A DNA stretch of 64,000 nucleotides, taken from NCBI GenBank assembly GCA_037892935.1, contig JAYXKI010000015.1, positions 310,001 through 374,000 of the forward strand, written 5' to 3'. Of this stretch, positions 18,102-63,000 are shown one piece after another. The notes beneath the pieces were generated by a model that was given only the letters and a program-made list of their open reading frames with translations, was not told the DNA's origin and did no database searches. How positions within the stretch are numbered: position 1 is the stretch's first letter; every line of letters begins with the position of its first letter. The translations under genes and the position numbers were made by a program. This DNA comes from Phlebopus portentosus (Eukaryota; Basidiomycota; Agaricomycetes; Boletales; Boletinellaceae).

Positions 18102-20036
18102 ATGTTTGGACAGTTCCAGCTTGGTACTACTGCCTCCCCCTCTAACGAAAGGACAGATGTAAAGCGTGTGGCTATACAGTAAGTATCCTCGTCTTCCCCC
18201 ACCTCTCCGATTGTCGTCTATGTCTCGGCCTTATACTGATCATGATGCAGTCATATGATGTCCGAATTGCACTCAAGTCGCGATGTTGTCGATGAGAGCG
18301 ATGCGTTCGGCGCGTTTGGCGCTTTCGATGCATCGTTTGACGACGACATGGAGCTTAGGCTCTTTGAATACCTCTATGATGCTGGCTCCCTCCAGTCTGG
18401 TACCGATGACGCACCGGCCGGTAGTAATGCAACTAAAAATGAGAATACGAGCGGAAGGTGAGTTGCAGACTAATGTTCCCCTCTCCGATCTGCACTGGTC
18501 TAAACCCGTCGTTTGTAGCCACGACATACCCTCTGACTCCACGTCTCGCGCGCCCGCTCAGAGCGCGCTCCCCTACGCTCATCCACTAAACACACCCGTC
18601 GAGTCCTGCTATTGGGCCAATCTGAATCTAGCGTCCACCCCGCACGTCTCTTCCTCTCAGGCCGATGCCGAAGACCGCGATGAACGCTCATCATCCTCGA
18701 GCTCCGTCGTCGAAATGGTTCCCTTCCTCGCTCGCAGTGACCTGGCCCTTGGCGAATTGCAGGTCGCCGAGCATCCATTCTTCGCGTTTCCCCTCCCGCC
18801 GATGGAGGATCCTCAAGACGACACAGAGGGAAATGAAGAGAAAGTCTTATCTGATGAAGAGGTGCACCCATCTCCACCCCCTTTGTGAGTAACTGACGGT
18901 GTCTGTCATACTCGTACTGTCTACTCATCGTCGCTTATAGGACTGTTTCTAATTCTTCCGAATCTACGCGTGCGGATACTCCTCCTTTCCTTAGAACTCC
19001 GTCAGTTGGGCCGTGCGGAGCAAGCGGTGCTGTTCCTCGTCACATCGAATCTACTGTGTCGAGTGCGGGAGCACCGGCATCACCAAATGGACTGCCCGAG
19101 GCTGATTCTCCAGACAAGAAGAGATCTCTGCCTGAGTTCGTCTCGGGTGCTGCATTACCCGAAGTCGAAGAGGGTTCGGAGGAAGTACCTCCTGTTGCCG
19201 ATGCAGAACTCGTTACCCCGGAGCTGACTTCTGATACTCCGTCACTTACGCGGGAAACCACTGTAGCGGAGCCAGAAGAAGCTGCTGCTGCACCCAAGGA
19301 AGAGCCCGTCGTCGATCTTGAATTGGCGCCGGAGTCTCCGTTTCCCTCTTTGAGCGGGTCTACAAATGCTCAAGAGCCTCACGCTCTTCCCGTGTCTCAA
19401 GGCGCCCCGCCATCAAGGAAAAGGAAGAGGGTTGCTAAATTGCATGATGCGCACGAGCTACGCGCGCTCTCGATATTGCCGCCAGAACGTAAGAAATTCT
19501 CCTTACCAGTCCGCGCGGGACGAGCCAGCAAAACTGGCATCAATAGAATCCGGAACATCCAGTTGGAGGCAGAATCGTGCTGCCACCTGGCTGGCGGTAA
19601 TGGCTATTGCCAGTTTCGAGATTCGGCGAACGGAGGGAGGTGCATGGCGGAACTGCCCAAGGACGACAAGGTGACGCGCGCGCACCTGGCAATGCATACC
19701 GATGCGCTCGGCTGGCGGGAGTATTCCCGACGACACCCCGACTGGAAACCGATCTGTCCTTGGTGCAACGAACCGCGGACGAAATTCGAACAGCTGATAC
19801 GGCATATCCTGGACACGCACTTGCTCATGTTCATGGAGTGGTGCCCGTGTGGGGGCACCAACAGCCGGTCCAATACGGCGACCAACACAGGTAGACACGA
19901 GTTTTCGGATGTTCACAAGGTCTACCTGCGAAAGCAGGCTGTGTTGAAAGCTGTGAAGAAAGAGGTCGCGGACGATGGGCAGGAGGAATTCGTACAGGGG
20001 TCAAGCAAGGGGAAAAAACGGCGGCGTCGAGGGTAG
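18102..20036 (+). CDS. Acidic nuclear protein with C2H2-like zinc-binding region, array copy 2 (intact)
   Basis: Four exons join in frame: MFGQFQLGTTAS.. to an intron at about 18179; HHMMSELHSSRD..; SHDIPSDSTSRA..; then TVSNSSESTRAD.. to the stop at 20036. Length is about 580 residues. The N-terminal two thirds are rich in Ser, Pro, Asp and Glu, like an activation or disordered region. A basic patch (PSRKRKRVAK) and an ERKKFSLP segment lead into a Cys/His region: CCHL..CQFR, CMAELP..RAHLAMH, CPWCNEPRTKF..RHILDTH, and CPCGG. The protein ends in a basic tail (KGKKRRRRG) that looks like a nuclear signal. A transcription-factor or chromatin role is plausible but inferred; I do not recognise a named family. 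Confidence 0.8.
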
Positions 20037-22549: not shown

Positions 22550-24478
22550 ATGTTTGGACAGTTCCAGCTTGGTACTACTGCCTCCCCCTCTAACGAAAGG
22601 ACAGATGTAAAGCGTGTGGCTATACAGTAAGTATCCTCGTCTTCCCCCACCTCTCCGATTGTCGTCTATGTCTCGGCCTTATACTGATCATGATGCAGTC
22701 ATATGATGTCCGAATTGCACTCAAGTCGCGATGTTGTCGATGAGAGCGATGCGTTCGGCGCGTTTGGCGCTTTCGATGCATCGTTTGACGACGACATGGA
22801 GCTTAGGCTCTTTGAATACCTCTATGATGCTGGCTCCCTCCAGTCTGGTACCGATGACGCGTCGGCCGGTAGTAATGCAACAAATAACGAGAACACGACC
22901 GGAAGGTGAGTAGCTAGCTAACGTTCCCCTCTCTGATACGCACTGGTCTAAACCCGTCGTTTGTAGCCACGACATACCCTCTGACTCCACGTCTCGCGCG
23001 CCCCCTCAGAGCGCGCTCCCCTACGCTCATCCACTTAGCACACCCGTCGAGTCCTGCTACTGGGCCAATTTGAATCTAGCGTCCACCCCGCGCATCTCTT
23101 CCTCACAGACTGATACCGAAGACCGCGATGAACGCTCGTCATCCTCGAGCTCCGTCGTCGAAACGGTTCCCTTCCTCGTTCGCAGTGACCTGGCCCTTGG
23201 TGAGCTGCAGGTCACGGAGAATCCATTCTCCGCACTGCCCCTCCCATCGACGGAGGATTCTAACGACGGCATAGAGGAAATTGAAGAGAAGAAAGTCGTA
23301 CCTGACGAGCAGGTACACCGATCGCCCCTGTGAGTAATTCATCGTGTCTGTCATACTCGTACTGTATACTCATCATCGCTTATAGAACTGTTTCTAGCTC
23401 TTCGAAGTCCACGCGTGCGGACAGTCCTCTCCCTATAACTCCTTTGGTCGAGCCCTTCGAAGCAAGCCGTACTATTCCTCGTCACGCCGTGGCTGCTGGA
23501 TCGAATGCAGAGGCACCGACACCGTCAAAAGGACAGCGCCCTGCTGATTCTCTTCTTGACAAGGAATCTCCACTTGAGTGCGTCTCGGATGACGCATCGC
23601 CCCAAGTAGAAGAGGGCCCAGAGGAAGCTTATCCTGCAGCTGGCGCAGACTTCGCTTTATCGAGGCCAACGCCCGCTACTTTGCCGCTTCCGCTGGGAAG
23701 TCTTGCAGTAGCGTCAGAAGAGGCTGCTTCTGCGCCCAAGCGAGAGCCCGCCGATCTCGAAGTGGTGCCAGAGGCTCCGTCACCTTCTTTAAGCCAGTCT
23801 GCGGATGCTCAAGAGCTTCGCACCTTTCCCGTGTCCCAAGATACTCCTCCTCCAAAAAAGAGAAAGCGGGCCGCCAAAATGCACGCGTCGCACGAGCTAC
23901 GCGCGCTCTCGACTCTGCCGCCGGAGCGTAAGAAATTCTCCTTGCCAATCCGCGCGGGACGAGCCAGCAAGTCTGGCATCAGTAGAATCCGGAACACCCA
24001 GTTGGAGGCAGAATCGTGCTGCCACCTGGCTGGCGATAATGGCTATTGCCAGTTTCGAGATTCGGCGGATGGGGGAAGGAGGTGCATGGCGGAACTGCCC
24101 AAGGATGACAAGGTGACGCGCGCGCACCTGGCAATGCATACCGATGCGCTCGGCTGGCGGGAGTATTCCCGACAACACCCCGACTGGAAACCGATCTGTC
24201 CTTGGTGCAACGAACCGCGGACGAAATTCGAGCAGCTAACACGGCATATTCTCGATACTCACTTGCTCATGTTCATGGAGTGGTGCCCGTGTGGGGGCAC
24301 CAACAGCCGGTCCAACACGGCGACCAACACAGGTAGACACGAGTTTTCGGATGTTCACAAGGCCTACCTGCGAAAGCAAGCTGTGTTGAAAGCTGTTAAG
24401 AAGGAAGACGCGGACGATGTGCAGGAGGAATTCGTACAGGGGTCAAGCAAGGGGAAAAAACGGCGGCGTCGAGGGTAG
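22550..24478 (+). CDS. Acidic nuclear protein with C2H2-like zinc-binding region, array copy 3 (intact)
   Basis: Same four-exon structure as the gene at 18102, with all splice sites kept and the stop at 24478. The first two exons are nearly identical to copy 2. The third exon and the first half of the fourth differ most (VDGASE-type acidic and Pro-rich segments, many substitutions and in-frame length changes). The C-terminal zinc-binding region (CCHL..CQFR, CMAELP..HLAMH, CPWC..RHILDTH, CPCGG) and the KKRRRRG tail are almost unchanged. This pattern suggests purifying selection on the Cys/His region with a fast-evolving disordered middle. No function can be named. Confidence 0.8.
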
Positions 24479-32531: not shown

Positions 32532-32539
32532 GCTACGCC
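32532..32539. repeat. Target site duplication, left of the transposon tandem
   Basis: GCTACGCC, repeated exactly at 46465-46472 on the far side of the two transposon copies. It marks one insertion event for the pair. Confidence 0.85.
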
Positions 32540-32546
32540 AGGACCC

Positions 32547-32581
32547 AGGACCCCCGGCAATCCCTAGGAATGCCTGAGGCC
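32547..32581. repeat. Left terminal inverted repeat, transposon copy 1
   Basis: Begins AGGACCCCCGGCAAT; pairs with 39471-39505 at 29 of 35 positions. Confidence 0.9.
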
Positions 32582-33001
32582 TATCCGGATACAAGTCGCC
32601 CGAAAAAAGGCCTGAGGCCTAGGGCCATCCGGATACAAAAGGGGCAAAAAGTCGGAAACAGCCTGAGGAGGCTGTCCGGATACGGCTGGTAGTTCGAAGA
32701 TAAGGCCTGAGGTCATCCAGATACGAGGTAATCAGGGTAAGTCAGGTGGTCTAGTGGTGTAGATAATCAATCTTGTAATGTACAAAGGATATTACAATAA
32801 AGATACATTTGAATTATAATGCTTGTTGTCCACATGCACAGTAAATATTGAATCTACAATGATCAATACAAAACGAGACAAGAGAATTGATAGTCAGACA
32901 TTGTATTACAAAAAGGTACACGTACCATTTCAGGAAAGCGAACCATCGAACCACCACTTTAAGACAACCATACCCGAGACACGCACGCATACAGCTTCGA
33001 A

Positions 33002-36000
33002 ATGCATCAATATATCACTGGAGATGGCACGAAGGGGACAGAACGAGCATTGTCAACATACGGCTTGACATCTGTTGGTCAAGAACAGCAGTGTCAGATA
33101 CCCAAAGAGCCTCAAAAAGACATAATCGATCCAAACCTTTCTGTGAAGTCCCTTATGGACCGTATTTCATTCGTTACACAAGGGGGTGGCCGCTCTACGA
33201 TCGATTGGGAGGGCCTGTTCAGCTCCGAATGGCCGAATGCAGGCGTCGAAAGCCTCTTCAAGGCCTGCGTGCTCCCCCCAGACAAGCTGCTCGAACCATT
33301 CCTAAACAAAGTGCCGTCAGTCGAAAACAAGTCTATAAAAGATTTTTTCTCACTGGAAACACGATATCCTCTGTCAGCAATCGAAATATATCGATCTTTT
33401 GCCAGAGCCAACAGAATGCGAACCGTTTGGAGGACCGCAGAGGCGTGGATGGATAGATGGGCTTATCGAGTGCCCGGTATGGTCGAGGCGGTGAATCTCA
33501 CGCACAAGTTGATGTGCACGTTGGAGTGGGACGCATATATCCGTGCAGTTGGAACGAGCGTACCGACGAGGGAAGTAGTTGCGATGCTAGAGGACGGATG
33601 GTTGTCAGACAATCATATTGATATGATTCTGGAGACACTCACCGATTGGCTGAGGGACAAAGGAAACGAACACGGCACAAAGATTGCGCCGTGCATGTTC
33701 GTAAGGCATGCCCTGCAAATGTACAACGCACGGAATAGCAAAAATGTGCTTACCGTACGAGTTATGGACTGGTACCACAATGATTTGCGGTGTGGAAGGA
33801 CGCGGGTGTTGTATTTTGTTGCCCATGTGAACAATAATCATTGGGTTGCATGGAAAATTGACCACTCAGCTGGGACCTTGAGCCATGGTAAGTAGTTCTT
33901 GTAGAGCGTCTTTTCAATGCTGATGCTCCCGGACAGGTGATTCGCTCGGTGTTAGTGAAGAATGTTTGAAGCCTATCAAAGAGAGTCTATTATGGTGGTT
34001 AGAGTCGACATACGGCGAGAAACGAGAGTACACATACCTTGGGAATAGCATACCCCATGGCAATCAAAACCTTGGAGACTCCTTCTCATGTGGAATTATC
34101 GCGTGTAACGCGATCGCACATGATCAGTTTACTGACCCGCTGTGGACCATGGAGAGTCGCAGAGTGCTGAGAGTAGAGGCTGTAAATGCTATCATTATGC
34201 ACCACAATCAAAGGGTAAGACTTTTGTTCATTTAGGAGCACAGAAAACGCGCTTACGATTCCCAGAGGGCAAAGACAGAAGCCAAGCAGGGCTATGTCAT
34301 TTCCGATGATGACTTGCCAGATATTTATGCTGTTAGCTACGCATCAGCAGCAGCTGAACAAGCCAAAGTGCCCAAAAACGACACTATGAGAACTCAGGAA
34401 TGGCCCGAAACGTATTGCATCGGGCCGGAGTTCTGTGATGAGGAGGCAGAGATACAGAGCTCCACATTCACTGGCACGGGCCCTCCTACGTCCATTTCAG
34501 CAAGTCGGCCGTCTTCGCGCATGAGCATCATCGAAGAAGACGATAACACATCATATACGAATACTTCAGATTGCGAATCGAACGAGAAGAGTGACGAGGA
34601 ATGTATATCAATCAGACGACAGCGGTCGGGCAGAGCAGCGCGTTTCAGGACGCATCAAAGATTCGAGGAAGAACCGTACAGAGCAGAGCAACAAGGTGGC
34701 CAAACGTCTAATAGAGAACTGGGCAGCGAACTTGATGGGCTCGGATCTTTGAAGAGAGTAACGGAGATGAAGAGACAGGATAGGGGACCTAGGAAGAAGG
34801 TGAAGAAAGCCGAATTTGGACCGTTAGACGTATTCCTCAGGCCAAGAGGTGGAATCGCGCAACAGACGAAACGAGACGAAGCAAATAGCCAGAAAGGAGC
34901 AGATACTCTCACCAGTGGGAGTGAGGGTACTGAAGAGGAAGAGGAAAGTGGGAACACCGAGACCGGCGATAGTGATCCAGACGCGTCTGATGGAGTCACA
35001 GGACCGCAGTCCCGTGCTGCGCGACACGCTCGAAAGATGCGCGAGTCACGTCTTTCCGGTACACAAACTATCAACGAAAATTTGTACGAAACTTTCAAAA
35101 CGAAAATCCGTCAATGGGACTCCGATGCTCAGTTCGATCCCTCCTCGTGGCGAGTCCAGCACTCAAGATGCAAGACCTGGTACAAAATGCAGTCTTTGTA
35201 TGCGCCGGGATACTTCGTCAAGCACGTCCATCGCTGCAAGACTGACTTGACACTTCATGACTTCTTCGACGAGGCTAGCGCCGACCAAGATATGAAATTG
35301 CCCAGCAGGCAACACTTTTCCAATGAAACTCGTACTTGCTCGGGCCTGACAGCTGCTTATGATGCTCGCATTTTGACTTACCTGCAACGGCTGACAGCTC
35401 TTGGGGGGGTGGTACTTCGAAACTTGTAATTGCCAAGGAGAGATTTCGGCGGCCATACAGACTTCTTACAAAGGCACAGAAAGCAGAGGTCAGGAGACAG
35501 CACGAAGCAAGTTGGAAGTGGGTAATCAAGCATTCGCATAGGGCGGTTTTCTCGACATCGTGCAAAACATTCGTCAAGATTTCTGACTTGATCACTGATG
35601 AATATATCTCAACGGCCGCCTGTTCCTCTTGTAAGGATTTACTTCGGCTGAAGACATTCCGGAATGCAATCAGCATTCCGGAACCTACTGCAGGGAACAT
35701 GAAGTATACAAACCGGGAGTTCCAGCAGGAGGACATCGGGACAAAGTTCATGAAGTGCAAAGGAGTCGAGGAGCTTCTCAATCCAAATGTGAGTTTCAGT
35801 CATCAAACCTGGTATACTTACTGAAGCATTCTTTTTCCTTATCACATATGCGGCTCTTAATACAGTCAGAAGAAAGTAGAATCGCAGTTCGCTATGCACA
35901 GGGAGTAGCCAGAGGTGATTTCAAAGACCATGCTGTTTTCACCGGTCTTGTGGATGTCATGCTTCAGAAAATGGATCGCGAGGCTCGAGGCAAGAAGCTG

Positions 36001-39000
36001 ACTAACTTCAAGTACCCTCCAGCCTTTGACGAGTTCATCAAGACCGTCCATTTGCTTGCTCCTCGTGCTTACAGAATCCTCAAGGTCCATTTTCCGGTCA
36101 GGTCAGACAGGAGTATTCGGTGAGTTACATGTAACCTTGTCCATTTGAATCTTGCCCTCTTCGACTGACTGTCATTTATTCAGGAAGATACGAGCAAAGG
36201 AAGACCAATTCACTCCGGGTATCTCTGAGCGTTCGTTCGATAGGGCCGCTGAGTTTGTGAAGGGGCTGAAAGTACCAGGAAATCAAGTCGCCGTTAGTGC
36301 AGATGATACAAAGCTGCTCGCGACATTTCGACCTTTCTTGGATCGCGAGTCAGGTGAATGGTCCATAGTGGGTGGAATCGGGGAGCCGTATCTGGTCAAC
36401 GATCCGGACAATCTTCATTCAGAATTGGAGCAGGCAAATTTACAGAAGGCAAACAAGGTACGCTATTCGATTTACAAAAAAGAAAGCCTCGTGATAACAA
36501 ATATAAACTTTATAGCTTCGAATTTGGGCCCTGCAAGTACCCTTACCGAAGATTCCACCATTGGTATTAGCGGCTATGGCGATTGGCGATGATGTGACTG
36601 CGGAGACACTCACTGCATTTACCATGCGAGTTATCGAGGGACTTCTCAGCCGTGGAATATGGCCAATCTCATACTCGTGTGACGGGACTGAAAAGGAGCG
36701 CGCGAACCAGAGGAACATTGCAGTTCAAGCACATTCCTCGGACATCAGACGAATCACATCACCATGGGACGATGAAGACGATATTGTCATTGAAATCCCA
36801 CTTTTCAATGGGAAGCCAATGGCTTTGATGCAAGACTCGCTACATGCCAGGAAAACGGGACGAAATAACATCGTCTCCGGCACAAAAACGATGGTGCTGG
36901 GAAATTTTTGCGTTCTTTACAAGCATCTTCGTGATATGGCCTTCGACTCGGACTCGCCTTTATACCACCGCGACGTAGAAAGAATGGACAAACAAGATGA
37001 TCGTGCCGCGGCGCGCGTGTTCTCTTCATATTCTCTCGAATACTTACTGAACCACGGGCCGGACACTTTTGGGACGGCCCTTTACATTTTTGTGTACGGC
37101 GAATTCATTGATGCGTACCAGAACAGGTCGATTCCAATCTCGGACCGCTTTCATATGGTCCTTCAAGCAAGGTTTTTCACCCAGATGTGGAAGAAATTCA
37201 TTACGAAGGCTGGATATCCGTGCAGACGAGCTTGCTTGTCCAGAGAGGCGCTTGACATCTTTGATATTCTTGGTAATGGTTTTTTACAACTTATGTTCAT
37301 TTACAGAGACTATTTTGAAGGGAAAACGGTTCCATTCGTTCCATGGCTCCACTCAACAGAGACATGCGAGCATATTTTTGCGGAATGCAGAAAGGAGGTG
37401 AAGGATTTTGACTTCGCCACCTTTCTGCATATGATGCCGAATGTTCATTGGATGGTACGTTATTCTCAACAAATGGATTCTACGAGCACGGAGGACGCGA
37501 AGGGACGTGCACGTGGCTATATTCATACCTGGTCCGATCTCGAAGAATTATCCCTCAAGGACCTCACCGATTTCCCCTCGGATGACGAATTGGACAAGAT
37601 TGCCAGACTTGCTTTCGAAGATGCTGAAGAACTTTGGGTGCAGCTTGATGTTTATCTTCAAGATATCCGTTCGACACCTCTTTCAGTCATCCAGGAGGGC
37701 TCTAACGACTCTGAAGAGGAATCAGAAGATGAAGAAATTCAAGAGGACGTCCTTTCGCTCCTATCTCAGGACTCGTCTCTTGCGCTTACTGCGGATGGCT
37801 CTGGTATACTCGATTTTGATGGGACAGAGCGTGCGGCTCTCGAGCGTCTCATGACATTCGACGAAGAGGTCGATGCAAGCGGCACAGTCCGTCTTACAAA
37901 CATCGAAGACACCCTGGTCAACATTTCATGTGCAAAATTATTGTTGGACTTCGACACACACACTCGCATGTAAGTACTCTTTTCTTTATCGATTCTTTGT
38001 GACTAAAATACTCTGTTAATCAAGTGAAGAAAAGTACATGCCGTCTCCCGAGCAGATTGACAAATTCGTCGCCGATTACTCTACTGAAGTTGGGAAACTT
38101 CTTGCGGACAGCCTTCCAGCGATCTCTGACCCTGGACCAAAGCCTCGAACATCATCACCCATCCGACTGACGAAGGACAGTCTTGTGGACATTCGTCGAG
38201 CCCACGAGACCAAACTATCAAAGAAGGCCATTCGAACTTCCACAAAAAATGTGGGAAGTCAGTCGGAACAGGCCGACTCGAGGGCGAGAGCTTCGCTCAT
38301 CAAGAAAATTCACGAAGTTTTGAAGCTACAGCAGGATGTGGGCAAAGGGACTGGCCTGGAGCGCCGTGCTAGATGGACTGAAAACAAATCGACAGGGAAC
38401 GCTGCAAACGCAGCTACTGTGGCAGCAGCAAGTGCAGCACAAGTAAGTTTATTTTGTGGTTCTTTATTCTTTGAAACTAGTCTGATCGCTCTAAAACAAC
38501 AGGCGCTTTCGAAACGTTCAAATGTTTTCGCAAAGTCCCCCATGCCGCTTAGTCTGAAGCAGCTTCTATCGACGGCTGGTATACACAGCGCTTACCCTTT
38601 GAATGAGGGATCATACGCCATCATATTCTTCTCTGGGCGGCTTCTTTTGGCTCGTGGTAAGTTTGCTTTGCTGTAGTTGTCGTTTGAATGCAATTTAACT
38701 AGTTTTTCAGTGCAATCCTTATTTACCAGGAGTGGTGGTAAAATCGGATTTCACTCTTATAAACCCTCCGTCGATAAAGTCACGGTTCTGTCAAATATTT
38801 CCGTCCAGTCTTTTGAGCAGGCTCGCGGTCATGTCTTCAGGGCTCGTAACTCATTGATTGCTCCTCTCAATGTGAACTATTTTCCTCACATATGTTTTTC
38901 CGATCTTCTTTTTGCTTTGCCAGATACACCAATTATTCGCAATGAAGGTGCAACAGTCGAGCTTCGAGGCACTTCTATTGCTCTTTGGTCCACAATTCAG

Positions 39001-39057
39001 TCGACTACTCATATTCTGCCTTTGGTAATCAAGGAACTCAAGAGTCGCAAAAACTAA
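33002..39057 (+). CDS. Ulp1-type cysteine protease fused to P-element/THAP9-like transposase (copy 1)
   Basis: Nine exons, all with good splice sites except one frame gap; about 1,860 residues. An upstream in-frame stop makes Met at 33002 the first start. Residues about 260-380 form an Ulp1/C48 protease domain: His in NNNHWVAWKID, Asp in SHGDSLG (across intron 1), Gln/Asp in GNQNLGDS and Cys in SFSCGIIACNAIA. A long acidic, basic linker follows, then a zinc-binding block (HSRCKTWY..FVKHVHRC). The transposase part has conserved RYAQGVARGDFKD and NFKYPPAFDEF, and candidate catalytic acids: SADDTKLLA, SYSCDGTEKER, and the Glu in HSTETCEHIFAECR. MQDSLHARKTGRNN matches the DPPHLLKxxRNN motif of P/THAP9 enzymes. 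The frame shifts by one base at a G run (about 35403-35410). One gene or two is not certain. Confidence 0.82.
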
Positions 39058-39470
39058 TTCTCGTTTAATTACTTTATTTCCACTCATCTGCATTTCTTCT
39101 TTCCTCTTCATGCTGGCAGCCTGTTCTTATATTTCCTCTCTGCATCTGCATTTTTCATTCACCAATCCGCTTTTCGTTATTCAAACACCATTTTTTCTCT
39201 GCATTTCATTGCTTCCTTATGGTATAATATCAATTATTTCCCATTAATCCTATCTACTTATATATTGTAATAGCTGCTTCAGATGCGCACGAAACAATGT
39301 ATTTAGGGCTCCATTGAGGCCCAAACCCGATCCGGATGACCAGACGGCCTCAGGAAGGCCTGAGGCCGATATCCGGACATTTTTGGCCAAAAATTTGGTA
39401 AGCCTCAGGCCATCCGGATACAAAAGGCCCGTCAGGGCCCGAAAAAATCCGGATATAAGGTACCCCGCGC

Positions 39471-39505
39471 GACCTCAGGCATCTGAAGGCATTGCCGGGG
39501 GTCCT
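39471..39505. repeat. Right terminal inverted repeat, transposon copy 1
   Basis: Ends ATTGCCGGGGGTCCT. Base 39506 (C) alone separates it from the left end of copy 2, making a near-perfect palindrome at the junction. Confidence 0.9.
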
Positions 39506-39506
39506 C

Positions 39507-39541
39507 AGGACCCCCGGCAATCCCTAGGAATGCCTGAGGCC
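39507..39541. repeat. Left terminal inverted repeat, transposon copy 2
   Basis: Identical to the left repeat of copy 1 from AGGACCCCC onward, without the additional AGGACCC. Confidence 0.9.
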
Positions 39542-39961
39542 TATCCGGATACAAGTCGCCCGAAAAAAGGCCTGAGGCCTAGGGCCATCCGGATACAAAA
39601 GGGGCAAAAAGTCGGAAACAGCCTGAGGAGGCTGTCCGGATACGGCTGGTAGTTCGAAGATAAGGCCTGAGGTCATCCAGATACGAGGTAATCAGGGTAA
39701 GTCAGGTGGTCTAGTGGTGTAGATAATCAATCTTGTAATGTACAAAGGATATTACAATAAAGATACATTTGAATTATAATGCTTGTTGTCCACATGCACA
39801 GTAAATATTGAATCTACAATGATCAATACAAAACGAGACAAGAGAATTGATAGTCAGACATTGTATTACAAAAAGGTACACGTACCATTTCAGGAAAGCG
39901 AACCATCGAACCACCACTTTAAGACAACCATACCCGAGACACGCACGCATACAGCTTCGAA

Positions 39962-42900
39962 ATGCATCAATATATCACTGGAGATGGCACGAAGGGGACA
40001 GAACGAGCATTGTCAACATACGGCTTGACATCTGTTGGTCAAGAACAGCAGTGTCAGATACCCAAAGAGCCTCAAAAAGACATAATCGATCCAAACCTTT
40101 CTGTGAAGTCCCTTATGGACCGTATTTCATTCGTTACACAAGGGGGTGGCCGCTCTACGATCGATTGGGAGGGCCTGTTCAGCTCCGAATGGCCGAATGC
40201 AGGCGTCGAAAGCCTCTTCAAGGCCTGCGTGCTCCCCCCAGACAAGCTGCTCGAACCATTCCTAAACAAAGTGCCGTCAGTCGAAAACAAGTCTATAAAA
40301 GATTTTTTCTCACTGGAAACACGATATCCTCTGTCAGCAATCGAAATATATCGATCTTTTGCCAGAGCCAACAGAATGCGAACCGTTTGGAGGACCGCAG
40401 AGGCGTGGATGGATAGATGGGCTTATCGAGTGCCCGGTATGGTCGAGGCGGTGAATCTCACGCACAAGTTGATGTGCACGTTGGAGTGGGACGCATATAT
40501 CCGTGCAGTTGGAACGAGCGTACCGACGAGGGAAGTAGTTGCGATGCTAGAGGACGGATGGTTGTCAGACAATCATATTGATATGATTCTGGAGACACTC
40601 ACCGATCGGCTGAGGGACAAAGGAAACGAACACGGCACAAAGATTGCGCCGTGCATGTTCGTAAGGCATGCCCTGCAAATGTACAACGCACGGAATAGCA
40701 AAAATGTGCTTACCGTACGAGTTATGGACTGGTACCACAATGATTTGCGGTGTGGAAGGACGCGGGTGTTGTATTTTGTTGCCCATGTGAACAATAATCA
40801 TTGGGTTGCATGGAAAATTGACCACTCAGCTGGGACCTTGAGCCATGGTAAGTAGTTCTTGTAGAGCGTCTTTTCAATGCTGATGCTCCCGGACAGGTGA
40901 TTCGCTCGGTGTTAGTGAAGAATGTTTGAAGCCTATCAAAGAGAGTCTATTATGGTGGTTAGAGTCGACATACGGCGAGAAACGAGAGTACACATACCTT
41001 GGGAATAGCATACCCCATGGCAATCAAAACCTTGGAGACTCCTTCTCATGTGGAATTATCGCGTGTAACGCGATCGCACATGATCAGTTTACTGACCCGC
41101 TGTGGACCATGGAGAGTCGCAGAGTGCTGAGAGTAGAGGCTGTAAATGCTATCATTATGCACCACAATCAAAGGGTAAGACTTTTGTTCATTTAGGAGCA
41201 CAGAAAACGCGCTTACGATTCCCAGAGGGCAAAGACAGAAGCCAAGCAGGGCTATGTCATTTCCGATGATGACTTGCCAGATATTTATGCTGTTAGCTAC
41301 GCATCAGCAGCAGCTGAACAAGCCAAAGTGCCCAAAAACGACACTATGAGAACTCAGGAATGGCCCGAAACGTATTGCATCGGGCCGGAGTTCTGTGATG
41401 AGGAGGCAGAGATACAGAGCTCCACATTCACTGGCACGGGCCCTCCTACGTCCATTTCAGCAAGTCGGCCGTCTTCGCGCATGAGCATCATCGAAGAAGA
41501 CGATAACACATCATATACGAATACTTCAGATTGCGAATCGAACGAGAAGAGTGACGAGGAATGTATATCAATCAGACGACAGCGGTCGGGCAGAGCAGCG
41601 CGTTTCAGGACGCATCAAAGATTCGAGGAAGAACCGTACAGAGCAGAGCAACAAGGTGGCCAAACGTCTAATAGAGAACTGGGCAGCGAACTTGATGGGC
41701 TCGGATCTTTGAAGAGAGTAACGGAGATGAAGAGACAGGATAGGGGACCTAGGAAGAAGGTGAAGAAAGCCGAATTTGGACCGTTAGACGTATTCCTCAG
41801 GCCAAGAGGTGGAATCGCGCAACAGACGAAACGAGACGAAGCAAATAGCCAGAAAGGAGCAGATACTCTCACCAGTGGGAGTGAGGGTACTGAAGAGGAA
41901 GAGGAAAGTGGGAACACCGAGACCGGCGATAGTGATCCAGACGCGTCTGATGGAGTCACAGGACCGCAGTCCCGTGCTGCGCGACACGCTCGAAAGATGC
42001 GCGAGTCACGTCTTTCCGGTACACAAACTATCAACGAAAATTTGTACGAAACTTTCAAAACGAAAATCCGTCAATGGGACTCCGATGCTCAGTTCGATCC
42101 CTCCTCGTGGCGAGTCCAGCACTCAAGATGCAAGACCTGGTACAAAATGCAGTCTTTGTATGCGCCGGGATACTTCGTCAAGCACGTCCATCGCTGCAAG
42201 ACTGACTTGACACTTCATGACTTCTTCGACGAGGCTAGCGCCGACCAAGATATGAAATTGCCCAGCAGGCAACACTTTTCCAATGAAACTCGTACTTGCT
42301 CGGGCCTGACAGCTGCTTATGATGCTCGCATTTTGACTTACCTGCAACGGCTGACAGCTCTGGGGGGGGTGGTACTTCGAAACTTGTAATTGCCAAGGAG
42401 AGATTTCGGCGGCCATACAGACTTCTTACAAAGGCACAGAAAGCAGAGGTCAGGAGACAGCACGAAGCAAGTTGGAAGTGGGTAATCAAGCATTCGCATA
42501 GGGCGGTTTTCTCGACATCGTGCAAAACATTCGTCAAGATTTCTGACTTGATCACTGATGAATATATCTCAACGGCCGCCTGTTCCTCTTGTAAGGATTT
42601 ACTTCGGCTGAAGACATTCCGGAATGCAATCAGCATTCCGGAACCTACTGCAGGGAACATGAAGTATACAAACCGGGAGTTCCAGCAGGAGGACATCGGG
42701 ACAAAGTTCATGAAGTGCAAAGGAGTCGAGGAGCTTCTCAATCCAAATGTGAGTTTCAGTCATCAAACCTGGTATACTTACTGAAGCATTCTTTTTCCTT
42801 ATCACATATGCGGCTCTTAATACAGTCAGAAGAAAGTAGAATCGCAGTTCGCTATGCACAGGGAGTAGCCAGAGGTGATTTCAAAGACCATGCTGTTTTC

Positions 42901-45900
42901 ACCGGTCTTGTGGATGTCATGCTTCAGAAAATGGATCGCGAGGCTCGAGGCAAGAAGCTGACTAACTTCAAGTACCCTCCAGCCTTTGATGAGTTCATCA
43001 AGACCGTCCATTTGCTTGCTCCTCGTGCTTACAGAATCCTCAAGGTCCATTTTCCGGTCAGGTCAGACAGGAGTATTCGGTGAGTTACATGTAACCTTGT
43101 CCATTTGAATCTTGCCCTCTTCGACTGACTGTCATTTATTCAGGAAGATACGAGCAAAGGAAGACCAATTCACTCCGGGTATCTCTGAGCGTTCGTTCGA
43201 TAGGGCCGCTGAGTTTGTGAAGGGGCTGAAAGTACCAGGAAATCAAGTCGCCGTTAGTGCAGATGATACAAAGCTGCTCGCGACATTTCGACCTTTCTTG
43301 GATCGCGAGTCAGGTGAATGGTCCATAGTGGGTGGAATCGGGGAGCCGTATCTGGTCAACGATCCGGACAATCTTCATTCAGAATTGGAGCAGGCAAATT
43401 TACAGAAGGCAAACAAGGTACGCTATTCGATTTACAAAAAGAAAGCCTCGTGATAACAAATATAAACTTTATAGCTTCGAATTTGGGCCCTGCAAGTACC
43501 CTTACCGAAGATTCCACCATTGGTATTAGCGGCTATGGCGATTGGCGATGATGTGACTGCGGAGACACTCACTGCATTTACCATGCGAGTTATCGAGGGA
43601 CTTCTCAGCCGTGGAATATGGCCAATCTCATACTCGTGTGACGGGACTGAAAAGGAGCGCGCGAACCAGAGGAACATTGCAGTTCAAGCACATTCCTCGG
43701 ACATCAGACGAATCACATCACCATGGGACGATGAAGACGATATTGTCATTGAAATCCCACTTTTCAATGGGAAGCCAATGGCTTTGATGCAAGACTCGCT
43801 ACATGCCAGGAAAACGGGACGAAATAACATCGTCTCCGGCACAAAAACGATGGTGCTGGGAAATTTTTGCGTTCTTTACAAGCATCTTCGTGATATGGCC
43901 TTCGACTCGGACTCGCCTTTATACCACCGCGACGTAGAAAGAATGGACAAACAAGATGATCGTGCCGCGGCGCGCGTGTTCTCTTCATATTCTCTCGAAT
44001 ACTTACTGAACCACGGGCCGGACACTTTTGGGACGGCCCTTTACATTTTTGTGTACGGCGAATTCATTGATGCGTACCAGAACAGGTCGATTCCAATCTC
44101 GGACCGCTTTCATATGGTCCTTCAAGCAAGGTTTTTCACCCAGATGTGGAAGAAATTCATTACGAAGGCTGGATATCCGTGCAGACGAGCTTGCTTGTCC
44201 AGAGAGGCGCTTGACATCTTTGATATTCTTGGTAATGGTTTTTTACAACTTATGTTCATTTACAGAGACTATTTTGAAGGGAAAACGGTTCCATTCGTTC
44301 CATGGCTCCACTCAACAGAGACATGCGAGCATATTTTTGCGGAATGCAGAAAGGAGGTGAAGGATTTTGACTTCGCCACCTTTCTGCATATGATGCCGAA
44401 TGTTCATTGGATGGTACGTTATTCTCAACAAATGGATTCTACGAGCACGGAGGACGCGAAGGGACGTGCACGTGGCTATATTCATACCTGGTCCGATCTC
44501 GAAGAATTATCCCTCAAGGACCTCACCGATTTCCCCTCGGATGACGAATTGGACAAGATTGCCAGACTTGCTTTCGAAGATGCTGAAGAACTTTGGGTGC
44601 AGCTTGATGTTTATCTTCAAGATATCCGTTCGACACCTCTTTCAGTCATCCAGGAGGGCTCTAACGACTCTGAAGAGGAATCAGAAGATGAAGAAATTCA
44701 AGAGGACGTCCTTTCGCTCCTATCTCAGGACTCGTCTCTTGCGCTTACTGCGGATGGCTCTGGTATACTCGATTTTGATGGGACAGAGCGTGCGGCTCTC
44801 GAGCGTCTCATGACATTCGACGAAGAGGTCGATGCAAGCGGCACAGTCCGTCTTACAAACATCGAAGACACCCTGGTCAACATTTCATGTGCAAAATTAT
44901 TGTTGGACTTCGACACACACACTCGCATGTAAGTACTCTTTTCTTTATCGATTCTTTGTGACTAAAATACTCTGTTAATCAAGTGAAGAAAAGTACATGC
45001 CGTCTCCCGAGCAGATTGACAAATTCGTCGCCGATTACTCTACTGAAGTTGGGAAACTTCTTGCGGACAGCCTTCCAGCGATCTCTGACCCTGGACCAAA
45101 GCCTCGAACATCATCACCCATCCGACTGACGAAGGACAGTCTTGTGGACATTCGTCGAGCCCACGAGACCAAACTATCAAAGAAGGCCATTCGAACTTCC
45201 ACAAAAAATGTGGGAAGTCAGTCGGAACAGGCCGACTCGAGGGCGAGAGCTTCGCTCATCAAGAAAATTCACGAAGTTTTGAAGCTACAGCAGGATGTGG
45301 GCAAAGGGACTGGCCTGGAGCGCCGTGCTAGATGGACTGAAAACAAATCGACAGGGAACGCTGCAAACGCAGCTACTGTGGCAGCAGCAAGTGCAGCACA
45401 AGTAAGTTTATTTTGTGGTTCTTTATTCTTTGAAACTAGTCTGATCGCTCTAAAACAACAGGCGCTTTCGAAACGTTCAAATGTTTTCGCAAAGTCCCCC
45501 ATGCCGCTTAGTCTGAAGCAGCTTCTATCGACGGCTGGTATACACAGCGCTTACCCTTTGAATGAGGGATCATACGCCATCATATTCTTCTCTGGGCGGC
45601 TTCTTTTGGCTCGTGGTAAGTTTGCTTTGCTGTAGTTGTCGTTTGAATGCAATTTAACTAGTTTTTCAGTGCAATCCTTATTTACCAGGAGTGGTGGTAA
45701 AATCGGATTTCACTCTTATAAACCCTCTGTCGATAAAGTCATGGTTCTGTCAAATATTTCCGTCCAGTCTTTTGAGCAGGCTCGCGGTCATGTCTTCAGG
45801 GCTCGTAACTCATTGATTGCTCCTCTCAATGTGAACTATTTTCCTCACATATGTTTTTCCGATCTTCTTTTTGCTTTGCCAGATACACCAATTATTCGCA

Positions 45901-46016
45901 ATGAAGGTGCAACAGTCGAGCTTCGAGGCACTTCTATTGCTCTTTGGTCCACAATTCAGTCGACTACTCATATTCTGCCTTTGGTAATCAAGGAACTCAA
46001 GAGTCGCAAAAACTAA
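39962..46016 (+). CDS. Ulp1-type cysteine protease fused to P-element/THAP9-like transposase (copy 2)
   Basis: Same exon structure and motifs as the gene at 33002: protease His in NNNHWVAWKID, Cys in SCGIIACNAI, transposase SADDTKLL, CDGTEKER, ETCEHIFAECR. Differences are minimal. DWLRDKG reads DRLRDKG, DKVTVLS reads DKVMVLS, and the other visible changes are silent or lie in introns. At the G run (about 42362-42369) the copy reads CTCT plus eight G, where copy 1 reads CTCTT plus seven G, so the downstream frame is again off by one. Everything else reads as an intact gene. Confidence 0.82.
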
Positions 46017-46429
46017 TTCTCGTTTAATTACTTTATTTCCACTCATCTGCATTTCTTCTTTCCTCTTCATGCTGGCAGCCTGTTCTTATATTTCCTCTCT
46101 GCATCTGCATTTTTCATTCACCAATCCGCTTTTCGTTATTCAAACACCATTTTTTCTCTGCATTTCATTGCTTCCTTATGGTATAATATCAATTATTTCC
46201 CATTAATCCTATCTACTTATATATTGTAATAGCTGCTTCAGATGCGCACGAAACAATGTATTTAGGGCTCCATTGAGGCCCAAACCCGATCCGGATGACC
46301 AGACGGCCTCAGGAAGGCCTGAGGCCGATATCCGGACATTTTTGGCCAAAAATTTGGTAAGCCTCAGGCCATCCGGATACAAAAGGCCCGTCAGGGCCCG
46401 AAAAAATCCGGATATAAGGTACCCCGCGC

Positions 46430-46464
46430 GACCTCAGGCATCTGAAGGCATTGCCGGGGGTCCT
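46430..46464. repeat. Right terminal inverted repeat, transposon copy 2
   Basis: Ends ATTGCCGGGGGTCCT, directly followed by the target duplication. Confidence 0.9.
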
Positions 46465-46472
46465 GCTACGCC
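46465..46472. repeat. Target site duplication, right of the transposon tandem
   Basis: GCTACGCC, the exact partner of 32532-32539. Confidence 0.85.
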
Positions 46473-48508: not shown

Positions 48509-49804
48509 GGGATGAGTTCTCGAGTCGAGTCGAGTGACGACGGATGTTTTATTTTTCTTTCTTTTCTCCTTCCTTATTTTTGCGTTCTGTGATTGACGAA
48601 TGATATCCTGTACCACCTACCCAACAAAATCCTGTACTTCTCGAGAAGTCACCTTCACCATCCTGTTGTTGTCTTCACCGCGCTGTACAATAGACCATAG
48701 ATTATAGAGGGCTTTCCAGCCCCTCATACGCAAGCAAAAAATATCATCCAATATTTTTCAGACGGATTCAAAAAGTTTGAATATTATTGACGACTGGGAG
48801 TCTTCATCTTTCCTTTCATTATTTACTCAACGTTCATTCCCTTATCGACTCGGACTCGGGACTTCATCAACCTCGGTATAAATTATAATGTTTCTCGCGT
48901 CTCTGGTTCTCGCGAGGAATATTCACTCCGAACCCTTATCTTCCCGTCGCTCGTCGGATATCATGTCATATCATATCAGTTTACTCGCTCGCTTTCCTCT
49001 TCCCTTATCAGTGGTGCGTCCCCGGACCCCGTGCCCTCAATCGATCTATCTAACGAGCTCGACTGGTCATTCACAGCCCAGCTGCATATATGTATTCGAA
49101 CATTACAGCGAATTCCATAATACAGTATTGTGTATGAGCTCAGAGCATATATATGCAATCGACCGATCCCGACCGACTCATCGAAGAGGGTTCTAGTTCA
49201 ATGCAGCCTGCATCGTTTCTCGAGTCCAACGTTCGACCATCGAAGGCGAGCCTCGACTGGACACGTACGATGCTGATTAGACATTTTCTTTGTGTCCGGA
49301 CGATAATAATGTTGCTAAAGGCCTAAAACGCGAACTTGCATCTCGGTTGTTCATTTCATTTGGCCGGGTGAGGTGGTACCGTTGCTTAACATATCTCTTA
49401 TCCGCGAACCTGATTGACTCGGCTGTACAGTACATGGCTGATCTCAGAGCTGTGTTACGGGTGCCTGTAACGGCGGAATGGCCTGGGATGACTTTTTTTT
49501 TTTCTTGCCCTACGTTGATATGGTTTGGACTTGTATAAGAACTTTCCTGTAAAGTGCAAACAAAAACAAGCCTCCACTAAAGATCTAGCAGACCGGCCCG
49601 GGGTGCCTGAGTTCGTTGCTATTGAGAGGCGACGGCAGGCATATTAAACCCAAATCCATAAGAGAAAACGATGCAGAATGAAATTTACAGCTACAGTAGC
49701 TGAATGAATGAAAAAGACTGTAAAACATCACGTGTGACGATACTTCTGAAAAAGGCAGTAAAGATAACATTGGAAGATGGACCCACGTCGCAAACAATGC
49801 TAGC
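48509..49804. other. AT-rich gene-free spacer
   Basis: No recognisable gene; the only simple-sequence feature is a poly-T run near 49492. It forms the border between the conserved HAD gene and the NLR/CR locus. Confidence 0.5.
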
Positions 49805-51460
49805 AGCCAATAATCTCGCAGATTGAAAACGTCACTTGGGATAGCCTCTCGCCCAGTTCTCTCCCAGTGGGGGAATTCAGTGAATCCAGCTTCGTCGACG
49901 AAAACTTGCAGCTGAAAACAACCATATTTCGCGCTCGACAGAGCGTTCCGCGCATATCCTCCGGTATCCATATCAGAAACTCGCCTCCTTCACCTTTCAC
50001 CCAACCATCTTCGAATAGCGTCCAGTTCGAGCGCGTGCGTTCCCTAGAGGCTGCTGGGCCAGTGCCTTGGTCATTTGAGACTGTAAGCGTATCTACTCGG
50101 TGGGACGACGAAGACCTTGCCAGGACCCTTCTCGTAAGCCTTCCGTCACATCCTGGAACGATGCCTTCGTTACCCACGTCCCAGAGACGACGAATGATAT
50201 TATCACTGGATCCCGACACGATGCGCGTCCCGTCCGGTGATATTGCGTTGCGACTGAATAGATCTCGTCTGTGTGACCCTCGAGCGGACCCAGGATGAGT
50301 TCCCCGATATCGGCATCCCAGATGCAAATAGTCGAATCCCAAGAGCCGGAGACGACGCAGTTGCCATCCGGCGAGGAAAAAAACTGACGTGACGCTGACT
50401 CCACGTCCTTTGAGCGGTCCCGAGATGAGATTTCCGGTCCCGGCATCCCAGATACAAGTTGTCCTATCACGAGAACCCGACGCAATGCATTTCCCGTTCG
50501 AGGAGAATGCAACTGAGTTGACGGAGCCTGTGTGACCCTCGAGCGGTTCCAAGACGAGCTCGCCACTGTTCGCATCCCATATGCAAATCGTCGCGTCATC
50601 ACAACCGGAAACGACATGCTTGCCAACTGGCGAGTATCCCACCGAATTGACCCTGCTTGTGTGCCCCTTGAACGGACCCGATACAAGTATGCCGCTGTCA
50701 GCGTCCCGGATGCAGATGGTGTTACTGCAGGAGGGCGGGACGAAGTGTTTTCCGTCCGGAGAGAACGCGACTGAAGTGACAGAGCAACGGTGTCTTTCTG
50801 TGACGAGTTCTCATCCTGCCCCCTCTAGGCGTGATTCAAACGGACCTGCGAGGAGCTCGCCGCTCTCGGCATCCCAAATACGAACAGTCGTGTCATAAGA
50901 GCTTGAGAGGACGCGTGTGCCGTCTGGGGAGAACGATTCCGAGACGAGATTTCTTGTGTGAATCTTGAAAGGACCAGTGAGATGCTTGCTGCTGTCGGCG
51001 TCCCAGATACGGATTGTGTTATCGCCAGAGCTCAAGACGATGCGTTTCATCAGGAGAGAACGCGACTGAGCTAACTCCGTATGTGTGCGCCTCAAATACA
51101 CCCGACGCGATCTCGGTGCTGCCGTCTACATCCCAAATGCGAATGGTGCTATCCACACTGGAGTGAAAATAACTGACGTAATAAATAACGTGTGCGCTGT
51201 CCGCTGGCGACATCCAAGATGGCCATTTCATACCCGAAGCCTGAGACGACGTGACAGGCTTCCCATCCGTAAAGAATCCGAAAGAAGTTAAGCCCGTGTG
51301 GAAAAGTTATTTTCTTCTATGAGTTTACCACTGTCAACGTTCCAAATGCAGGTCGCCCCAAAAGTGGCTAGAACTTGTCGCGAGATGTTGCCCATCTGGC
51401 GAGATAGCCGTTAATTCCACATCGCCTACATCGAACGGACAGAGTAAGCATCTTCAGACA
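49805..51460 (-). pseudogene. WD40 relic of a NACHT-WD40 NLR
   Basis: Minus-strand WD40 blocks align with the C-terminal half of the intact NLR at 60071-64000. Examples are STIRIWDVDGSTEIASGVFEAHT, DNTIRIWDADSSKHLTGPF, GKHVVSGCDDATICIWDA and EGHTGSVNSVAFSSNGKCI, followed by the shared tail DDGWVKGEGGE-like EDGWVKGEGGEFL and WIPEDMR. Several frame changes occur (near 50390, 50830, 51060 and 51230), and no NACHT domain is present. The 3' flank also matches the intact gene (AGCAGCCAATAATCTC), so this is a truncated duplicate. Confidence 0.85.
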
Positions 51461-60070: not shown

Positions 60071-63000
60071 TCACCTGGGATAGCCTTTCGCCCAGCCCTC
60101 ACCCACGGGGGAATTCTGTAAATCTAGCTTCATCGAAAACTCGCAACTGAAAATAGCCGTATTTCGTGGCTGCCAAAGCGCTTCGCGCATATCCTCCGGT
60201 ATCCACGTCAGCAACTCGCCTCCTTCGCCTTTCACCCAGCCATCATCGGATAGCACCCAGTTCGAGAATGTGCGTTCCCAAGAGGCTGCTGGGCCAGTAC
60301 CTTGAACGTTTGAACCTGTATGCGTATCTGTTCGGTGAGACGACGAGGAGGTTGTCACGGTCCCCTTTACAAGCCTTCCGCCGCGTCCTGAGACGAAATC
60401 TCCATCACCCACATCCCAGACACGAATCGTTTTGTCCCAAGACCCCGACGCAACGCGCGTCCCAGCCGGCGAGTATGCAACTGACAAGACGCCGCTTGTG
60501 TGCCCCTCGAGCGGGCCCAAGATGAGCTCCCCGGTGTCGGCATCCCAGATGCAAATGGTCGAATCCCAAGAGCCTGAGACGACACATTTGCCATCCGGCG
60601 AGAAACAAACTGACGAGACACTTGACCTATGTCCTTTGAGCGGCCCCGAGATGAGCTTTCCGGTTCCGGCATCCCGGATACGAATTGTCTCATCTTCAGA
60701 ACCCGACGCGATGTGTTTCCCGTTCGAGGAGAATGCGACTGACCAGACGGTATCCGTGTGCCCCTTGAGCGGGTCCAAAACGAGCTCGCCACTATCCACA
60801 TCCCATATGCAAATCCTCTTATCCTTAGAACCGGACACGACATGCTTGCCATCTGGCGAGTATGCTACCGAATAGACAGTATTTGTGTGCCCCTTGAATG
60901 GACCCGATACAAGCCTGCCGCTGTCAGCGTCCCGGATGCAGATGGTATTATCGCAGGAGGGTGAGACGAAGTGTCTTCCGTTTGGAGAGAGCGCGACTGA
61001 AAGGACGGGGTAATAGTGTCTTTCTGCGCCATCGATGCCAGTTCGGGTGCATCCTGCCGCCTCTAAGTGTGCTTCAAACGGACCTGCGAGGAGCTCGCCG
61101 CTCTCGGCGTTCCAAATGCGAATGGTCCCGTCATAAGAGCCTGAGAGGACGCGTCTACCGTCTGGAGAGAACGACACCGACTCGACACTTCTTGTGTGCC
61201 CCTCGAAAGGACCAACGAGATGCTTGCCGCTGTCCGCGTCCCAGACACGGATTGTTTTATCATTGGAGCCTGAGACGACGCGTTTCCCATCAGCAGAGAA
61301 AGCGACCGATCTAACCACTTTTGTGTGCGCCTCGAATGCACCTGACGCGATCTCGGTGCCGCCTTCTACATCCCAAATGCGAATGGTTTTATCCTCTGAA
61401 CCGGAGACGACGCGTTTACCGTCAGGAGTGAAAATAACTGACGTAATCCATGTCGTGTGTTCCTTGAATGGGCCCCAGATGCGCTGTCCGCTGTCCACAT
61501 CCCAGATGGCAATCGATTTCCCGCCTAAGACGACGCGTTTCCCATCCGCGGAGAATCCGACAGTGTCGCCGAAAAGTGTTTTTACGAGTTCGCCGCTGTC
61601 AACGTTCCAAATGCTTATCGACACCCAATCTTCAGAAACTACCGTCGCGAGATGCTTCCCGTCTGGTGAGACAGCCATTGATCTCCCTTTGTCTACATCA
61701 AACGGAGCCGAGACTCGCTTCCCGGTCCCGGCATCCCAAATGCTAATCATGTTATTTTTAGAACCCAAGACATATTTTCCGTCCGGCGTGACTTCGCGGA
61801 ACTCGACGTCCGTGTCATCCTCAAACTGTGCAAAGACGAATTCGCCATTCTCGGAATAAAATAACTTCCCGCCAGACACAGAAATGATGCGTCTGCTGTC
61901 CGGAGAGAACGCGACCGACGTGACCACGGGATCACTTGCTTTAAACACAGAGACGAGACTGTCAGTGTCAACATCCCAGGTGTGGATCATCCCTCCTCTA
62001 GAACCCGACACGACTTGCTTGCCGTCCGGGGAGAACGCGACGGACTGGACTGCATTGTCTGCTTCAAAAGGACCCGCAATGAGCTCGCCGCTGAAGGCAC
62101 TCCAGACACGAATCGTCCTGTCTCTAGACGCAGATGCGATCCGCTCCCCGTCAGCGGAGACCACTACTGAATTGACATAGTCTGTGTGTCCCTGCAAGAC
62201 TTTAATGCACTGGCCTGGCGTCCTTCTGCCCAATCTGTCTACTTTCACAACTGGGTGAGTTACCGAATAACGATCCGCGATCAACGATTCGCTTTTCCAA
62301 AGGGATATTGCAGATAGATATACCTGAGGAGCGCTTTGCGAGATCGGGTACTCAAAAACAACGACCAGTCTATACGCCGTCCACAAGAAAGACGACAAAT
62401 CCGCATCAATCCGCTATAGGAGCGTCAGTAAAGCTGTCAATGGGCTGTGAAAATTCACCAACCGTGATCCACGAGCTGGCAACATATAGAGATCGGCCGG
62501 CAACCCGAATGGAACATCCGGTTAAGGACAGGACTTCGAGCCAGTATAAGAGGTGAACGGATGCAAATTTCTTTAGCTTGTCCCGCACAGCGGTCGAGCT
62601 GTCTGACCACTCGAGTTCGTGCAAGTGCACCGCCCACAAGCGACAAGCATAGTCTAGGTGTGGAAGAATCTTGTCCATGACACGTTCGTCGAGTTGCGGA
62701 ATCTCGGAGTTGCGCAGGAACGACGATTCAATATCACACATGTTGAAATGCAGTTTCTCTGCCATTACGTCGAAGCACCGCTCGGTCATGGCTTGCTTCT
62801 GCACTGCCTCGCTGATGTGCCACGGTTCCTTCCCGGACCTCCCTGATGACAATAGATAGTCGGCGAAAGACGCATGGTGCAGTCGAACTGGCTTCCCGGG
62901 CTCAGATGAGATTACGGACCGAAGTCGCCTCAATATAGAGTCTACTGTATCCTCCTCCAGTCCGAGAAAAGCTTCGATGACTGTACCGCTCATAGCCTCC

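Follow-up and report, generated by a model that had tools for sequence, protein, structure and literature searches.

The window (the whole stretch of 64,000 nucleotides of Phlebopus portentosus DNA analysed here) holds two near-identical transposon copies arranged head-to-tail, which differ by 5 substitutions and 1 indel over ~6,959 bp and each carry the same gene. The features of this locus, with gene and domain limits as predicted, are as follows:

32532-32539 (left) and 46465-46472 (right), no strand: outer 8-bp target duplication GCTACGCC of copy 2, exact match
32539-32546 (left) and 39506-39513 (right), no strand: inner 8-bp target duplication CAGGACCC of copy 1, exact
32547-39505, plus strand: transposon copy 1, of 6959 bp, lying within the left end of copy 2
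39507-46464, plus strand: transposon copy 2
32547-32592, plus strand: left terminal inverted repeat of copy 1, imperfect, its initial 15 bp perfect
39460-39505, minus strand: right terminal inverted repeat of copy 1
46419-46464, minus strand: right terminal inverted repeat of copy 2
33002-39057, plus strand: single gene of copy 1, nine exons by GT-AG inference, same layout in proteins P0001-P0003
33002-33887, 33937-34214, 34266-35788, 35866-36119, 36184-36457, 36516-37969, 38025-38442, 38503-38656 and 38711-39057, plus strand: predicted exons of copy 1
39962-46016, plus strand: copy 2 counterpart of the copy 1 gene, its frame likewise broken (near 42360)
33002-34214, plus strand: protease domain of the Ulp1/SENP type, its catalytic set at codons 33839 (His), 33939 (Asp), 34065 (Gln) and 34089 (Cys)
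35041-35788, plus strand, approximate limits: two putative zinc-binding regions between protease and transposase, drawn from the Cys/His pattern, conserved columns and domain profiles
35866-37520, plus strand, approximate limits: predicted P-type transposase core (helical region, RNase H fold, insertion domain)
36302 (D), 36681 (D), 36834/36843 (D(2)H) and 37368 (E), plus strand: residues of the transposase core, copy 1

A reading of this DNA made earlier from the sequence alone (the sequence-only reading) had taken 32540-46464 as one transposon. A single element of 13.9 kb is ruled out by the nested copy with its own 8-bp duplication at the junction: there are instead two copies, with copy 1 lodged within the left-hand end of copy 2. 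The left CAGGACCC consists of the final base of the outer duplication and the 7 initial bases of copy 2, and because CAGGACCC is repeated on both sides of copy 1, we interpret the tandem as one copy having recently inserted into another copy's end, a nesting that supplies the second exact 8-bp duplication in the window. The exact flanking duplication that had been claimed is indeed present, as the outer GCTACGCC pair, and the terminal inverted repeats, earlier put at 35 bp, start with AGGACCCCCGGCAAT, are perfect over 15 bp and show 77% complementarity over 47 nt. Sub-terminal repeats (ATCCGGAT palindromes and CCTGAGGC) were also seen at 32570-32700 and 39320-39470, near both ends of the window element; they are absent in L056, a related element described below. 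Elsewhere in the window, closely similar open frames on one strand (18897-20036 and 23306-24478) probably represent a gene duplication, and open frames on the minus strand (49800-50810 and 60071-62413) seem rich in WD40-like repeats, both as judged by eye.

The introns of the gene are 49-77 bp long with GT-AG borders, and the predicted product of ~1,860 aa is ordered as Ulp1 part, linker, two Cys/His-rich regions, transposase and C-terminal region. An identical layout is found in three annotated Sanghuangporus proteins of 1,861-1,883 aa (P0001-P0003), and a further annotated protein from Sanghuangporus baumii (P0004) shows 99% identity over 48% of the query. Two of these proteins, P0001 and P0003, bear the NCBI names MARS2_1 and MARS2_3, which were probably assigned wrongly by automatic annotation. 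Both catalytic signatures claimed for the locus, one long gene with an Ulp1 His/Asp/Cys set and a transposase with three acids plus a D-x2-H-x2-K-x2-RNN motif, were found at the codons listed above, though the frame is broken in a G-run in both window copies (near 35,400 in copy 1 and near 42,360 in copy 2). At this G-run a third near-identical copy on contig C1 (L009) is in frame, and since the two window copies deviate from it each in a different manner, an assembly error is possible. The related element L056, on contig C5, has no stop codon over the 1,616 aa that extend from Ulp1 to the transposase core inclusive, and its C-terminal frame seems broken downstream, as judged by eye. With the window copies frameshifted, L009 lacking a right end and L056 apparently broken at the C-terminus, no copy among those examined appears intact from end to end.

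A genome search for further copies with 8-bp duplications, put forward as a check on the sequence-only reading, was carried out over 38.4 Mb in 23 contigs. Besides L009 it recovered L056, 7,190 bp long with matching ends and the duplication CTCCTACC, a near-copy of L056 on C1 whose ends were not found (L057), and many short copies. Among 20 distinct paired-end copies (the loci fetched, a subset of 96 end matches), 15 are flanked by an exact 8-bp repeat and the remaining 5 show 2, 3, 3, 4 and 7 mismatches over 8 bp; no exact flank repeat of any other length from 4 to 12 was present in these 20. For this count copies with identical flanks were counted once, and L009, L057 and L060, which lack one or both ends, were excluded. 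As a control for chance, mismatched flank pairs agreed at 8 bp in 0 of 380 cases. The 8-bp length is thus not due to chance: 15 of 20 copies are exact, no other length occurs and no mismatched pair agrees. With the window copies included, 17 of 22 two-ended copies carry the exact 8-bp duplication, the length used by the P superfamily. A bare 8-mer pattern search gave 607 matches, below its reversed control, and has no bearing on the duplication. Copies of 613 and 621 bp match both ends of the window element at 83-84% identity and therefore look like internal deletions.

Several repeats of a different arrangement were recorded alongside. Five paired-end copies of 639-806 bp (L065-L069; C16:160002, C13:1286656, C7:161822, C12:924378 and C15:281490) have identical flanks and no 8-bp repeat, so that each probably lies inside a larger repeated unit. 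Three loci (L044, L061 and L064; C12:1491365, C18:128503 and C20:264828) represent one 682-bp copy with common flanks and an 8-bp duplication within a larger repeated segment, and were counted once. An end variant with one mismatch, AGGAGCCCCGGCAAT, occurs as unpaired single ends on several contigs and may belong to a different repeat.

The N-terminal part of the product can be assigned to the Ulp1/SENP proteases (family C48) through its His-Asp-Gln-Cys set and through a profile of 50 homologues, which matches yeast Ulp1 at E 1.9e-14, followed by SENP1 and SENP2. The Pfam search returned C48 matches (E 10 or less) in 21 of 28 long homologues, the best at 1.6e-12, and none for the window exons alone or for P0001. 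The 28-row alignment places Cys and Gln in 28/28 rows, His in 27/28 and Asp in 25/28 (2 gaps, 1 other residue). Here, by contrast with the Ulp1/SENP cysteine proteases themselves, the protease domain forms part of a transposase.

How regularly the two enzymes occur together was assessed across homologues. A transposase-side search, which scored the 7995 candidates sharing most words, yielded 62 homologues, 50 of which form alignment A1 and 28 alignment A2; an Ulp1-side search covered proteins of about 1029-3272 aa. Altogether 70 proteins were examined, and 43 of them are at least 1,300 aa long (38 from the transposase-side search, 37 of these with Ulp1; 1 from another search; 4 from the Ulp1-side search, namely P0066, P0067, P0069 and P0070). 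The transposase is present in all 43 and Ulp1 in 42; the sole exception (P0018) starts shortly upstream of the zinc-binding region. The domain profiles were built from A2, whose 28 rows thus match by construction; in the 10 other long transposase-side proteins outside A2, Ulp1 was found in 9. The Ulp1-side search added 7 other proteins, which all carry at least the start of the transposase within the length range given, and Ulp1 precedes the transposase in all 39 proteins in which both parts are near complete. When tree distances for protease and transposase are compared, the correlation is 0.90, a value reached in 0 of 999 permutations.

It could be argued that the protease is a passenger, captured once and retained whilst transposition no longer needs it. 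Ulp1 domains are present in several unrelated transposon groups (Ginger1 and Mutator; PMC2836005), which suggests that capture is common, and no Ulp1 part is seen in 22 of the 27 shorter homologues (< 1300 aa), many of which start inside the transposase; these are likely partial gene models, though some may truly lack the protease. Against a passenger stand the retention of Ulp1 in nearly all long homologues, the invariant catalytic Cys and Gln, and the comparison of two diverged copies, the window element and L056, where pN of the Ulp1 part (0.32) lies far below pS (0.80, saturated). The corresponding values are pN 0.25 and pS 0.79 for the transposase and pN 0.40 and pS 0.67 for the linker, which is 41% identical; as synonymous sites are saturated, no dN/dS ratio is claimed. 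We therefore consider passenger status unlikely: protease and transposase instead appear to have been passed on together and held under constraint, a pairing that, judging from the homologues, is present in many mushroom species.

For the transposase itself, the features weighed for membership in the P superfamily were an RNase H fold with D, D and E, a D(2)H motif after beta-5, a GTP cofactor, an 8-bp duplication and a 17-nt staggered end cut. The triad columns hold D in 28/28 rows, D in 27/28 (1 gap) and E in 25/28 (3 gaps). D and H of the D(2)H motif are present in 28/28 and follow directly after strand 482-485 of a predicted model; the position of D(2)H right after beta-5 is given as part of the definition of the superfamily (PMC8230255), and residues for the GTP cofactor are listed in PMC7776569. 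The model, calculated with AlphaFold for a Cantharellus relative (P0042) that is 28-35% identical to the other A1 rows and itself shows no Ulp1 part, displays a P-transposase fold with a helical region, a split RNase H domain and a large helical insertion. A second model (P0025 alone, mean pLDDT 36) was left out of the fold comparison.

In the structural check proposed by the sequence-only reading, a Foldseek search with the P0042 model returned P transposase as best match and Hermes, a hAT transposase, as next. A hAT element making 8-bp duplications would share this duplication length and the RNase H fold with D(2)H, and a published clustering groups the transposases of P and hAT elements into a single clade (PMC3985635); we consider a hAT assignment very improbable. 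Searches by sequence gave less: the P-element profile PF12017 scored 16.7 bits against a cut-off of 23 and matched 1 of 28 homologues, at 0.047, and neither the PDB sequence search nor the profile search placed a P structure above cut-off. Because PF12017 is composed of insect sequences (PMC3985635), it was not counted as defining the superfamily. PF21787 and PF12017 had no match over the genome, and as control genomes likewise gave none, this carries no weight. With Pfam, PDB sequence and profile searches all below cut-off, it is the predicted fold that supports assignment to P. THAP was absent among the 17 Pfam families matched by the 28 homologues, so that the N-terminal THAP domain of animal P/THAP9 elements was not found, which fits the statement that THAP domains are absent from fungi (PMC7776569).

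The second alternative is a KDZ (Kyakuja/Dileera/Zisupton) element, the hosts of which belong to the same group. KDZ genes are present in this genome, and 1 of 28 members of the family weakly matches CxC3, a domain associated with KDZ (E 0.27). Zisupton elements duplicate 8 bp of target, and Ulp1 domains occur in the KDZ group, which was reportedly named in a 2014 paper. However, PF18758, by which KDZ membership was judged, is found in 0/28 family proteins whilst matching at least 10 places in the genome (best 2.4e-69), none of them on the contig of the element, C15, among the matches listed. The best structural match is moreover P; no KDZ transposase structure is known to us for comparison. 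A KDZ origin is accordingly very improbable, in line with the sequence-only reading of a P-superfamily element that recruited Ulp1. The KDZ transposase genes or fragments seen in this genome (at least 10 matches) include C3:2252740, C14:977237, C18:799206, C11:1630985 and C4:1736776.

The ends, 8-bp duplications, nesting, deletion derivatives, the conserved catalytic positions of protease and transposase, their constant order and their co-divergence can be read from the sequences directly. Together with the predicted fold, they lead us to regard the element with high confidence as a DNA transposon of the cut-and-paste type that belongs, by its catalytic fold, to the P superfamily and whose transposase polypeptide would start with an Ulp1/SENP-type protease. 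With Drosophila P and THAP9 it shares the predicted fold from the helical region through split RNase H and insertion domain, the order D, D, D(2)H, E, 8-bp duplications, short inverted ends and internally deleted non-autonomous copies; it differs in its N-terminal Ulp1 part, the missing THAP match, a length of ~1860 aa and a sequence similarity below detection. The P elements reported from rusts (Repbase P-1_PSt, P-1_MLP and P-2_MLP) are likewise members of the P superfamily with basidiomycete hosts and 8-bp duplications, and the part of their description covered, by which they were compared, mentions no protease (PMC3164196). In the known Ginger1 and Mutator-like transposons, Ulp1 is also tied to a DDE transposase, but one unrelated to that of the mushroom element, and in Ginger1 the domain is C-terminal rather than N-terminal (PMC2836005). 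Mushroom KDZ elements are Agaricomycetes DNA transposons with accessory enzymes as well, and differ in transposase family (PMC12730594). Within the open-licence PMC literature covered, we found no account of an Ulp1-bearing element of the P superfamily, as the sequence-only reading had supposed. The new part would thus be the built-in Ulp1 protease in a predicted P-superfamily element without a recognisable THAP domain.

By analogy with P elements (PMC7776569), the helix-turn-helix would recognise the element ends, the D-D-E site would cut and join DNA, and a nucleotide would perhaps sit in the insertion domain. The zinc-binding regions would bind the ends as well, and the D-D-E cut would have an 8-bp stagger. 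The tethered protease may, conjecturally, take SUMO or a different ubiquitin-like modifier off proteins located at the element, be they silencing or repair factors of the host or the transposase. Tag removal could then help the element to escape silencing or to complete repair, and such domains were proposed to act on repair factors in the Ginger1 paper (PMC2836005). We put forward this role, removal of SUMO or ubiquitin-like tags at the site in aid of silencing escape or repair, as a possibility somewhat short of even. Alternatively, the protease could act in cis and set the transposase free by cleaving or trimming the fusion protein of which it is part, a reading favoured by the long and less conserved interdomain linker. 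Ulp1-type enzymes, however, cleave after ubiquitin-like tails, and cleavage in cis has little probability.

Returning to tag removal at the element, a broader picture can be drawn, more tentatively still: an Agaricomycete-wide P branch with an obligate, co-evolving SUMO/Ubl protease, in which local SUMO removal would be a step of transposition, other zinc-binding modules would replace THAP and the nucleotide pocket of the insertion domain would possibly be altered. Ulp1 recurs in unrelated transposons, with no role shown in the literature covered. Here the protease sits in one polypeptide with a transposase related in predicted fold to the well-understood P transposase of Drosophila, and recent copies, short derivatives and clean 8-bp duplications are available; hence, the question of why transposons carry SUMO proteases becomes directly testable in an excision/integration assay. 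The P superfamily, studied mainly in animals, would be extended as a conserved lineage across mushrooms.
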